In this document: in pieces, positions 1,267-37,256 of the stretch
How positions within the stretch are numbered: position 1 is the stretch's first letter
Layout: each line of letters begins with the position of its first letter
IMG/VR virus record: IMGVR_UViG_3300005264_000101
Coordinates: 1-37,256 of that record
Length of the DNA: 37,256 nt
Reading direction: 5' to 3' (one strand)
Origin: a virus
Program-made: the position numbers and the translations under genes
Notes under the pieces: generated by a model
Database searches by the model: none
What the model was told of the DNA's origin: nothing
The model's input: the letters and a program-made list of their open reading frames with translations, nothing else

Positions 1267-1317
1267 AGGATTAATCATAATATTCCTCTCCCCGGTTCGT
1301 CCCGGGCTTCCGTTGTG

Positions 1318-1352
1318 CGAAGGACACGAGTCGCTCAAACTCGTGTCCTTCG
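1318..1352 (+). terminator. 14-bp perfect hairpin, probable terminator
   Basis: Perfect inverted arms 1318-1331 (CGAAGGACACGAGT) and 1339-1352 with a 7-base loop, followed by TTTGTTAT. It sits between the clamp gene and the structural operon and would end rightward transcripts from dnaN or from the 1238 promoter. The U-tract is short, so an RNA-stability or attenuator role is also possible. Confidence 0.6.
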
Positions 1353-1373
1353 TTTGTTATGCCATCAAAAAAT

Positions 1374-1389
1374 TGTTTCACGTGAAACA
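1374..1389. promoter_or_regulatory. parS: parS site 1 (ParB-binding palindrome)
   Basis: Perfect 16-bp palindrome TGTTTCACGTGAAACA, identical to the chromosomal parS consensus bound by ParB/Spo0J across most bacterial phyla. It lies 26 bases upstream of the -35 box of the structural-operon promoter, separated by an A/T tract. It is one of four identical sites in the window; no parB gene is present. Confidence 0.9.
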
Positions 1390-1415: not shown

Positions 1416-1444
1416 TTGACAACAACCATAACCAATATTATAGT
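1416..1444 (+). promoter_or_regulatory. Promoter of the structural operon
   Basis: TTGACA (1416-1421), a 17-base spacer and TATAGT (1439-1444), with an A/T-rich tract upstream and the first morphogenesis gene starting at 1465 behind an AGGAGG ribosome site (1452-1457). This is the likely start of the head and tail operon. The parS site just upstream suggests possible modulation by ParB (inference). Confidence 0.75.
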
Positions 1445-5077: not shown

Positions 5078-5093
5078 TGTTTCACGTGAAACA
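5078..5093. promoter_or_regulatory. parS: parS site 2
   Basis: Perfect TGTTTCACGTGAAACA in the 48-base gap between the capsid stop (5074) and the decoration gene (5123), so it does not disturb a coding frame. Identical to the other three sites in the window. Confidence 0.9.
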
Positions 5094-30000: not shown

Positions 30001-31395
30001 TTAATTTAAATATAATGTCATTTCAGCCTTATTCGTGCCTTCGGTATAAATCTCACCAGCGGCTTCCAGCGTAGAAATTTGCTCATCATAACAATTAGCG
30101 TTACCATCCAAAAGCCTTGAGGAAATCAACTGCCTACGCAAACAACTTCCGCCTTTTTTAGCAATGTATTCTATCACTTTTCGCGCTTTTGCTTGCTCCT
30201 CAGACTCGCCCAGTTCCGTCTCATACAGCTGCACAGTGCTGTTGATAGAAACGGTTGCAAAATCAATAGCCGCCTGCAGGGTTTCTTCACTAATGGTTTC
30301 TGTGTCTGTGTCCATAAACGGTTGCAAAATCATACACAATTTTAAAACATTCGCCGGGAGACGATAGTAGAATTTCATCACCTGATCTCGGTGCCGCTCG
30401 TTGCACCCCTCGACCACGGCCTTGATATGGTCAATCCATGTTTGTAGTGCACTATAGATGTTATCGCCCACATGATATTCTACTGTTTTGCCGTGGATAA
30501 TCCTCATTAGCCGGGCGTGGATTTGAAACTCATTCTCCTCATCAATGACCGCTTGCGGCGGTTTGACAATTAGTTTTTTGTAATCCTGGTTTGGGTAAAA
30601 CATCATAAACCGAGGTAGGAAGCCGCCGGAGTGATCGGTGTCTTCAAGACATTTTACTAGCGGCTGGACGGCGGAAGCCGCATTAATAGTCACATACGGT
30701 TTTTCAATCAGACCCCTGTTCTCGACTCCTGTACCCCGTGTGTTGCGGATTTGATATGGAACCACTCCGTACGCATTCGTTAAAAAGCTCTTAAAACCAG
30801 TGTTGTGATTTCTCGCCATCATTGACAAAAACTGCGTGAACTCGGCATCGCAAACCATGCCGCCCCTAGAGTATTCCAAAATATCCTGAAATCCCTGGAG
30901 CGAGGAGTCGAATAAATTATAAATGACCTGTTTTGACATCTCGTCTATAATTAAACTTTTATACTCGGCCACAATTTTGTCTTTTTGTTTGCTATTGATA
31001 ACAGCATCATCACGCTCCGCCTGGAGTTCGGAAACCCGTTGCATAATACTATTATTGTATTTGATTGCAAACCGTGCGCCACCGGTCTCAGAATCAATGA
31101 CGGTGGATTTAAATGTGCCTGAGCCGCTAATAGACAGGCACCAGATGTTAGGATATAACCACCCGGCATAGTGCCGCACACGCGCGCGGGTGCCTATCAT
31201 GCTGGATATACCGCATAGTATAGAGTGGACAAACATAATTGGTTCGCCGCCCGGATTGTAATCCCGCAAATCCTGCAAATAACCACTAATCATAGGCGGG
31301 AGATTAGAGGGGTTGTAGTCATCACACGGCGATTTTTTTTTCTGGGCGATCGCCTTCGCTTTCTCGCGACTCGTTTTTTTCAAATTTTCGTTCAT
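30001..31395 (-). CDS. DUF3987-family P-loop protein (replication primase/helicase-like)
   Basis: 464 residues with a P-loop-like SGSGTFKST (90-98) and the DUF3987 layout: N-terminal 'WLYPNIWCLSISGSGTFKS', a central GGMVCDAEFTQFLSMM acidic strand (Walker B region), and 'SAVQPLVKCLEDTDHSGGFLPRFMMF', which resembles the region around an arginine finger. Such proteins are frequent in phage and element replication modules. It is the last gene of the leftward operon, start overlapped by the preceding gene, with AGGAG before the ATG. No separate initiator gene is seen in this window. Confidence 0.75.
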   Translation of the reverse strand: MNENLKKTSREKAKAIAQKKKSPCDDYNPSNLPPMISGYLQDLRDYNPGGEPIMFVHSILCGISSMIGTRARVRHYAGWLYPNIWCLSISGSGTFKSTVIDSETGGARFAIKYNNSIMQRVSELQAERDDAVINSKQKDKIVAEYKSLIIDEMSKQVIYNLFDSSLQGFQDILEYSRGGMVCDAEFTQFLSMMARNHNTGFKSFLTNAYGVVPYQIRNTRGTGVENRGLIEKPYVTINAASAVQPLVKCLEDTDHSGGFLPRFMMFYPNQDYKKLIVKPPQAVIDEENEFQIHARLMRIIHGKTVEYHVGDNIYSALQTWIDHIKAVVEGCNERHRDQVMKFYYRLPANVLKLCMILQPFMDTDTETISEETLQAAIDFATVSINSTVQLYETELGESEEQAKARKVIEYIAKKGGSCLRRQLISSRLLDGNANCYDEQISTLEAAGEIYTEGTNKAEMTLYLN

Positions 31396-31789
31396 TTGTT
31401 CTCCTGATTATTTTGAATGTTTTAGTGATAAACACAGATATAGGCACGCCGTCAATCCCAACGTGGGCATCTTTAGGCAACTGTAAGGACGTTGAAATGT
31501 CTGGGAAATCTAAATGTCTATCCTCATAGTAACTAACAGTTTTACCAAAATTAATCCGCCTTTTTTGAACTTCGCAAACCGGGGACTTGAGCCACGGGAG
31601 CGGCGGCGGTATATCTATTACCATCTGATACGCCACCAGAGCCGGATTATCGACTCTCGGTGTCAAAACTATAATATCACCCGTGGGTTTAATACGGGTC
31701 ATAGACAAACCCGCTGGGCCGCAAATGATTAGAGTTGGTGACGGAAGTGCCTCAAACTCTCGCCACCGGAGCGGTAAGAGAAACTTCAC
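31322..31789 (-). CDS. Unknown protein coupled to the HTH and DUF3987 genes
   Basis: 155 residues with a GTG start at 31789 overlapping the stop of the upstream HTH gene (GTGA), so translation is probably coupled; its last 25 codons overlap the DUF3987 gene start in another frame. Segments such as SLTIICGP-type strands early and GKTVSYYEDRHLDFPDI later are seen, but I recognise no family. The C-terminus is strongly charged (many Glu, Lys, Arg). Reality of the gene is supported by the tight fit, not by homology. Confidence 0.5.
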   Translation of the reverse strand: MKFLLPLRWREFEALPSPTLIICGPAGLSMTRIKPTGDIIVLTPRVDNPALVAYQMVIDIPPPLPWLKSPVCEVQKRRINFGKTVSYYEDRHLDFPDISTSLQLPKDAHVGIDGVPISVFITKTFKIIRRTNERKFEKNESRESEGDRPEKKIAV

Positions 31790-32034: not shown

Positions 32035-32056
32035 TTTATCCCCCCCCCCTTTTTTT

Positions 32057-32072
32057 TGTTTCACGTGAAACA
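32057..32072. promoter_or_regulatory. parS: parS site 3
   Basis: Perfect TGTTTCACGTGAAACA, 23 bases before the HTH start in the leftward leader and 83 bases (centre to centre) from site 4. Identical to the other three sites. Confidence 0.9.
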
Positions 32073-32123: not shown

Positions 32124-32152
32124 ATTATAAAACCCGGATTGTTTCACGTGAA
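32124..32152 (-). promoter_or_regulatory. Leftward promoter whose -35 is inside parS site 4
   Basis: On the minus strand, TATAAT (32129-32124) and TTCACG (32152-32147) are 17 bases apart. The -35 is inside parS site 4 (32140-32155), so ParB binding would compete with RNA polymerase. The promoter serves the HTH gene, the 31322 gene and the DUF3987 gene. The -35 is weak (4 of 6). Confidence 0.55.
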
Positions 32153-32155
32153 ACA
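32140..32155. promoter_or_regulatory. parS: parS site 4
   Basis: Perfect TGTTTCACGTGAAACA overlapping the -35 box of the leftward promoter. Together with site 3 it forms a pair 83 bases apart in the same leader. Confidence 0.9.
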
Positions 32156-34830: not shown

Positions 34831-34898
34831 AATTTCCTCCTCCTTTAATATTTAATATTTGTTATCTGCATTTATACTACTGCATACTGCATGCCATA

Positions 34899-34927
34899 AT
34901 TTGATAATATTTGATAAAATTTGATAA
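34899..34927. repeat. Three ATTTGATAA repeats spaced 10 bp
   Basis: ATTTGATAA at 34899, 34909 and 34919, so one copy per helical turn. AT-rich in-phase repeats of this kind are typical of DNA-unwinding elements at origins. Confidence 0.75.
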
Positions 34928-35281
34928 AACCTTGTAAACCTGTAATACTGTAAGGCAAGATTTAATATTTATTTTAAAAATATTGATAAGACCAAAATTA
35001 TAATAAATAAAATGCTTGACATTGACAAATTTTGTAATCCTTGCAAACCCGTGGTTATCAGCCATCTATGAAGCCCTTTTTATAACATATGTTTTATTTA
35101 AAAATAAATCCTTGTTGTTGCCTTATTATCAAGGCTTCGCACGAACCCCTGCAACTTATGTTGCACCCATTTTGTCCTAACATAGTGCAAACCTTTGATA
35201 ACAGCCTGTTCACAAATTCGGACTTTATTGCTAATTTTTCTAAAATTGTGATAAAACTCAATGGTATCAAACCACCACGCC

Positions 35282-35327
35282 AACCCCTGCAACTTTGGTT
35301 GCCAGATCAACTTATGTTGCAGGGGTT
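35282..35327. repeat. 12-bp inverted repeat AACCCCTGCAAC
   Basis: Perfect arms 35282-35293 and 35316-35327 with a 22-base loop. A further AACCCCTGCAAC at 35144-35155 is followed by TTATGTTGC, a short inverted half. The repeats make the two small overlapping open frames here unlikely to be genes. Confidence 0.7.
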
Positions 35328-35581
35328 TAAAATTTATCAACAAAAACAAACAGTTACGCCATCTAACAAAAAAAGGTAAACAATACCACGGTTAAAGGGG
35401 CGTTGAGTAGTTTACACAACAAAAAAGCACTATTTCAATTTTTAAACCCCTAATTATCAACGGTTGTTGTTTTTTCAATCCCAGCAAAGCCACGGTTAAA
35501 AGGGCGTTGTGTAACTTTAATTGCTGTATGTTTATTGTTTATAGGGGTTCACAGGGTTTCTATAAAAAATATTGTGTAATA

Positions 35582-35597
35582 TTGTGTAATTACACAA
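35582..35597. repeat. Palindrome TTGTGTAATTACACAA
   Basis: Perfect 16-bp palindrome, preceded by an extra half-site (ATTGTGTAAT at 35571-35580). One of three related palindromes with core TTG(A/T)GTANNTAC(A/T)CAA. Imperfect relatives: 35402-35420 (half-sites 3 bases apart) and half-sites near 35504 and 35776. Confidence 0.8.
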
Positions 35598-35833
35598 CGC
35601 CGTAACCTATTGATTTTATTATGTTATTTATATTATATATAGTATATATATAGTATATATATAGTATGTACCATATAGTATGTACCATATAAAGGGGGGT
35701 ATAGGGTGTACACCCACGGTTACCAACGGTTTCCGGGGATTTTAGGAAAGGGGGGGGGAGAAGCGGGGTAGCAATTTACACAACAAAACTAAAAAAAACG
35801 CTGTGAAGCCGTGGTACTGTAAGCAAAAATGGC

Positions 35834-35851
35834 GTTGAGTAGCTACTCAAC
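35834..35851. repeat. Palindrome GTTGAGTAGCTACTCAAC
   Basis: Perfect 18-bp palindrome preceded by an iteron-like copy (about 35800-35823). The spacing of iteron to palindrome matches the next unit at 35867-35920. Confidence 0.8.
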
Positions 35852-35904
35852 AAAAAGATTGTCAAAATCTTGTAAACCCGTGGTATTGTAAGACAAAAAT
35901 GGGT

Positions 35905-35920
35905 TTGAGTAATTACTCAA
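35905..35920. repeat. Palindrome TTGAGTAATTACTCAA
   Basis: Perfect 16-bp palindrome preceded by an iteron-like copy (35867-35892) and followed directly by three TATTAGTCAA repeats. Probably an operator or initiator site. Confidence 0.8.
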
Positions 35921-35950
35921 TATTAGTCAATATTAGTCAATATTAGTCAA
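35921..35950. repeat. Three tandem TATTAGTCAA repeats
   Basis: Three exact 10-bp units (35921-35930, 35931-35940, 35941-35950), ending 45 bases before the -35 of the rightward promoter. In-phase spacing suggests protein binding or local unwinding. Confidence 0.9.
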
Positions 35951-35995
35951 CAAAAAATAAAAATGGAAATATTATTATTTAATGTCAAAAAAGGC

Positions 35996-36024
35996 TTGAC
36001 AATGTCATTATTATATTTTATACT
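35996..36024 (+). promoter_or_regulatory. Rightward early promoter
   Basis: TTGACA (35996-36001), 17-base spacer, TATACT (36019-36024), followed by AAGGAGG and the ATG at 36054. Next to the palindromes and in-phase repeats, so it is a likely regulated early promoter. Confidence 0.8.
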
Positions 36025-36053
36025 ATTATCTAACAACAAAAAAGGAGGTTTTT

Positions 36054-36889: not shown

Positions 36890-36923
36890 ACTTGATAAGG
36901 CTCTTATTTTAAAAAATGGCTTT
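36890..36923. repeat. 34-bp direct repeat, right copy
   Basis: Identical to bases 1-34 of the window, followed by a similar CGTGCCAAA block. It lies 29 bases after the last early gene, while the left copy lies before the sliding-clamp gene. Confidence 0.9.
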
Positions 36924-37115
36924 TAATTGACCGTGCCAAAAACGATGCCTGATACCAACGGGTTTACAGAGACCAAAATCTATAACTATCTGTTTTTATT
37001 AAATTTTCATGATGCTAAATTACAGAGTACCTGAATTTACTGGCAAAAATGACAATCGCAAAAAAAAACAACACTTTACATCAAAAATCCAGCAAACCCA
37101 CGGCCCTCTATACAA

Positions 37116-37256
37116 AAAAAGGTTTTTTTTTTAACCTCTTTATCTAGTAAGCCCTTTGAAGTATGTTTTTTTCCTGAAGATTTTTTTCCTGAAGATTTTT
37201 TTCTTGTATATATATATAGTATTATAAGATAAAGAGGTTAAAAAAAAAACCTTTTT
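37116..37256. repeat. 30-bp perfect inverted repeat ending on the last base
   Basis: Arms 37116-37145 and 37227-37256 are exact reverse complements around an 81-base loop. Each arm contains AACCTCTTTATCT and a run of ten T (or A). As the right arm stops on the last base, the true element may be longer, or the end may be a place where assembly broke. Confidence 0.9.
37166..37202. repeat. Two and a half 15-bp units in the loop
   Basis: TTTTTTTCCTGAAGA occurs at 37166-37180 and 37181-37195, with a third T7 run to 37202. It lies in the loop of the inverted repeat. Confidence 0.9.

Follow-up and report, generated by a model that had tools for sequence, protein, structure and literature searches.

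The window analysed here is the entire IMG/VR virus record IMGVR_UViG_3300005264_000101, a stretch of 37,256 bases from an uncultured phage. Family scans (PHROG/Pfam) recognised genes for Terminase GpA, a lambda-type portal, a fused protease-capsid and a tape measure protein, and further genes code for an exonuclease VIII-like protein, a helicase, a beta clamp and two methyltransferase-like proteins. A small replication operon lies on the minus strand, and parS sites are found beside it and in the structural operon (Table 1). Queries with the portal, terminase and beta clamp against viral or genome contigs found no close relatives of the phage. An alignment-based capsid search returned distant relatives only (best 34–36% identity over the capsid), the nearest being one viral contig and a prophage-like region of Desulfatitalea. 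The phage genes scanned included no recognisable integrase or replication initiator and gave no other hint of stable lysogeny, so that the long-term segregation of this phage is uncertain.

Elsewhere in the window, an AT-rich noncoding stretch of 1.2 kb (34831–36053) is rich in iterated repeats, holds three 16-bp palindromes (TTGWGTARYTACWCAA) and is likely a replication origin or operator region. A 34-bp direct repeat is found at the contig start (1–34) and near its end (36892–36925), with differing sequence beyond. The contig end coincides exactly with that of a 35-nt inverted repeat (37116–37256; 94% complementary), which could reflect either an assembly fold-back or a genuine end structure.

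Table 1 Features of the window at and around the parS sites
Feature	Position	Strand	Details
Strong intrinsic terminator	1317–1353	+	15 pairs; upstream of parS site 1
parS site 1	1374–1389	.	Exact match; between terminator and structural-operon promoter
Structural-operon promoter	1416–1444	+	TTGACA, 17 nt, TATAGT; 11/12 consensus match
parS site 2	5078–5093	.	Exact match; in 48-bp gap after capsid/protease gene, just 5' of ribosome-binding site
DUF3987 protein, primase/helicase-like	30001–31395	−	Last gene of operon; Pfam PF13148, E 4e-21; PHROG 3022/2373
155-aa gene, same operon	31322–31789	−	Listed ORF, start provisional; no Pfam/PHROG family match
HTH_17 (excisionase/MerR-like) DNA-binding protein, 82 aa	31786–32034	−	First downstream gene; Pfam PF12728, E 2.5e-6; PHROG 2474
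parS site 3	32057–32072	.	Exact match; inside predicted 83-nt leader of HTH gene
Promoter-like site overlapping parS site 4	32124–32152	−	TTCACG (32152–32147), 17 nt, TATAAT (32129–32124); 10/12
parS site 4	32140–32155	.	Exact match; perfect 16-bp palindrome

parS sites and the search for ParB

The 16-bp palindrome of chromosomal-type parS, TGTTTCACGTGAAACA, through which bacteria segregate their chromosomes, occurs in the phage in four exact copies. Allowing up to three mismatches, we found no other parS match in the whole window, while shuffled sequence gave a mean of 0.28 such matches and never reached four. The sites are far above chance expectation. All four fall wholly within noncoding DNA, which makes up 6.8% of window positions. 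This placement alone is not specific to parS and is not taken as proof, since a control palindrome searched for in other viral contigs was also mostly found in gene gaps (10 of 11).

After loading at parS, ParB slides along the DNA as a CTP clamp. A six-frame search of the record for the ParB_N domain, which was positive in 10 of 14 control genomes, yielded no candidate, and ParA, ParB and integrase families were absent from Pfam scans of most phage genes. A phage-plasmid with its own ParABS, of the P1 type, was therefore rejected. With several parS sites and no ParB of its own detected, the phage resembles phi29 and belongs to a known, little-studied kind, the parS-bearing phages without ParB. 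Since the phage lacks a ParB, the natural ligand of the sites would be the ParB of the host, which the phage probably borrows.

Promoter-like sequences at sites 4 and 1

As the original prediction stated, the minus strand carries TATAAT 17 nt from a TTCACG that lies within site 4, a pair that scored 10/12 in our scan. The −10 box is perfect; the −35 box is weak (4/6) and built from parS letters. Transcription is predicted to start at ~32117, giving an 83-nt leader that contains site 3 and runs up to the HTH_17 gene. The location of site 3 in the same leader, 83 bp from site 4 (start to start), was likewise borne out, as was that of site 1 just upstream of the structural-operon promoter, whose −35 box begins 26 bp downstream of the end of the site. 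Consensus scans found no promoter at site 2, midway through the structural operon, and no promoter box overlapping site 3.

We estimated how often such an overlap arises when the parS letters are kept fixed and the 60 bp on each side are shuffled. A promoter match of at least 10/12 overlapped one or more of the four sites in 3.5% of trials (uncorrected for the choice of pattern), and a 9/12 match did so in 39%. Matches of 10/12 are common in the window (20 in total), and TATAAT at a spacing of 16–18 nt, on either strand, occurs at 0.7% of noncoding positions. Read from sequence alone, a promoter thus overlaps parS at site 4 and adjoins it at site 1. The comparison with shuffled flanks is suggestive; the overlap at site 4 is real in the sequence, yet may be due to chance.

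The leader RNA is predicted to fold with −21.8 kcal/mol (z −4.0), with a CUCCC pairing to a G tract and the site-3 hairpin enclosed by this CUCCC:GGGGG pairing. The tract is a run of ten G on the minus strand (32040–32049), preceded by eight A, in the ribosome-binding region of the HTH_17 gene. It could slip, varying expression of that gene.

parS sites in other viral records

The parS pattern gave at least 120 matches in viral contigs, some of which may be misassigned host DNA, compared with 11 for a control palindrome matched in composition and core. The reversed pattern was found in none of 50 parS-bearing viral records. A ParB-domain match was absent from 46 of the 50 records checked, our phage included (that is, from 45 of the 49 others). 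Matches in named phages first appeared with weak E-values, and direct reading then confirmed seven records only. Four sites within one mismatch were read in phi29, three within one mismatch and one with two mismatches in PZA, and two in B103. Butyrivibrio phage Arian has three exact sites, all in gene gaps, and an ssDNA phage record has five exact sites, three of them directly 3' of stop codons. In two records that were read in part, a large Bacillus phage carries four sites and a Lactobacillus phage two. The trait is lineage-specific, since ~2.5 Mb of DNA surrounding the distant capsid relatives of our phage held no parS at up to one mismatch.

The arrangement of sites varied among these viruses. 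A contig that is phi29-like in its head, collar and polymerase genes has parS in three close pairs, one of them right behind the major head gene. A 116-kb viral contig (GC 0.64) with no ParB match and no close named relative has 24 sites within one mismatch, mostly TGTTTCACGTGGAACA; in the part that was read these form two arrays with roughly one site per gene gap.

At 134 strand-sites in other viral contigs, −10-like hexamers were no commoner at the spacing seen at site 4 than elsewhere, and there were no perfect ones. The gaps that hold parS were codirectional in 55 cases, divergent in 14 and convergent in 12, close to background gap DNA (67, 21 and 12%), with no preference for the promoter-rich divergent gaps. 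Both tests relied on a crude gene caller. With neither a −10 peak at this spacing nor a divergent-gap preference, a general linkage of phage parS sites to promoters was rejected, and their shared purpose is apparently not promoter control.

Possible roles of the sites and comparison with known systems

We consider it fairly probable, from the exact sites and the missing ParB, that the host's own ParB docks and loads at the four sites and that they serve in positioning or retaining the phage genome. Host ParB-CTP would load at the four sites and slide along the phage DNA, and the phage genome would then be treated like host origin DNA and be positioned, retained at division or, as is reported for phi29, trapped in the spore. 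Borrowing the centromere protein of the host would be a simple route to retention, positioning or spore hiding for a phage that carries no partition genes. On site 4, ParB would cover the −35 box, and the small replication operon, with its HTH_17, unassigned and DUF3987 genes, would probably be transcribed less. Such repression is plausible because ParB represses parS-adjacent promoters in Pseudomonas (PMC5521831), and it would be a side effect or a secondary use of the sites rather than the reason for them.

The original prediction went further, proposing that ParB could silence or tune both operons. If regulation were the purpose of the sites, ParB bound at site 4, together with ParB loading from site 1, would tune or repress the replication and structural operons in response to host partition state or CTP, a reading that we regard as rather unlikely. 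The perfect TATAAT beside site 4 and the short distance from site 1 to the best structural promoter speak for it. So do the repression of promoters beside parS3 and parS4 in P. aeruginosa (PMC5521831) and the silencing by KorB and KorA of promoters up to 1.5 kb away (PMC11790492). The sites themselves, on which the proposal builds, have held up, and no ParB was found in the phage. Against it, however, the coupling comes down to one weak-to-moderate promoter match with a −35 box of 4/6, of a kind that shuffled flanks produce in 3.5% of trials; site 2 has no promoter and site 3 no overlapping box; and parS sites in parallel phages are uncoupled from promoters. In addition, KorB requires a clamp-locking partner, none being known in the phage, and phi29 offers a purpose other than regulation, namely genome capture. 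It seems improbable, too, that unrelated phages (phi29-like lytic, temperate-looking dsDNA, large and ssDNA) have repeatedly acquired host parS without ParB and that one copy here doubles as the −35 box of the replication operon, with a host protein both holding the genome and gating the replication genes. If parS does gate this promoter as well, a link between the host cell cycle and phage expression could be tested by a single point mutation.

Other explanations leave promoters aside or replace host ParB. Many replicating copies of parS might act as decoys that draw ParB and SMC off the host chromosome and disturb host segregation to the benefit of the phage. Stable inheritance is no obvious need in an ssDNA phage or in phi29, reported as virulent (PMC9437464), and both carry parS; but four copies in a 37-kb genome is a modest number, and we judge this quite unlikely. 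It is very unlikely that the sites are operators of a phage-encoded regulator, such as the HTH_17 protein, that match parS by coincidence. They do flank or precede phage operons, and the HTH gene immediately follows sites 3 and 4. However, operators are usually degenerate whereas all four sites are letter-perfect to the consensus of chromosomal-type parS, and the noncoding region at 35 kb has a palindrome family of a different kind. We give hardly any credence to the palindromes being leader hairpins, of which the one at site 3, within the CUCCC:GGGGG pairing, would hide the ribosome-binding site. The stability of the leader fold and the position of sites 2 and 3 just 5' of ribosome-binding sites fit this account, but a hairpin has no need of exact parS letters, the palindrome and the G10 tract account for part of the z-score, and site 1, being upstream of its promoter, is outside the leader of that transcript.

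Loading of host ParB, our preferred reading, can be set beside four known systems. In RK2, the CTPase clamp KorB acts together with KorA to silence promoters up to 1.5 kb away (PMC11790492). KorB, like ParB, is a clamp of the ParB family able to occlude RNA polymerase at promoters, but it binds operators of its own and requires KorA, and no such pair was found in the phage. A second is the chromosomal ParB of P. aeruginosa, which represses the promoters of PA0011 and PA0013 via the adjacent parS3 and parS4 (PMC5521831). Both cases have a parS palindrome that adjoins or overlaps a promoter; the P. aeruginosa case is chromosomal and was shown with reporters, whereas that of the phage is predicted only. 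The borrowing of a partition protein by a mobile element has a parallel in SGI1, whose parS copies stabilise it by means of the ParABS of its helper IncC plasmid (PMC10954446). There, the ParB of another replicon is lent by a plasmid, whereas the phage would borrow from the host chromosome.

The fourth system is phi29, whose entrapment in the spore is ascribed to host Spo0J (= ParB) in PMC9437464, citing Meijer et al. 2005. Our phage, a tailed phage with a GpA terminase, is unrelated to phi29. Two of the phi29 sites fall within annotated genes, for a collar protein and an endolysin, whereas all four sites of our phage are in gaps. In the phi29 type of ParB use, the genome is captured into host spores while Spo0A holds back the lytic genes. 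Nevertheless, both genomes have several parS sites of host type, four within one mismatch in phi29 and four exact ones here, with no ParB annotated in the former and no ParB domain found in the latter. phi29 is the sole case found in the literature searched, and, judging from our survey, the practice may be shared by many unrelated phages.
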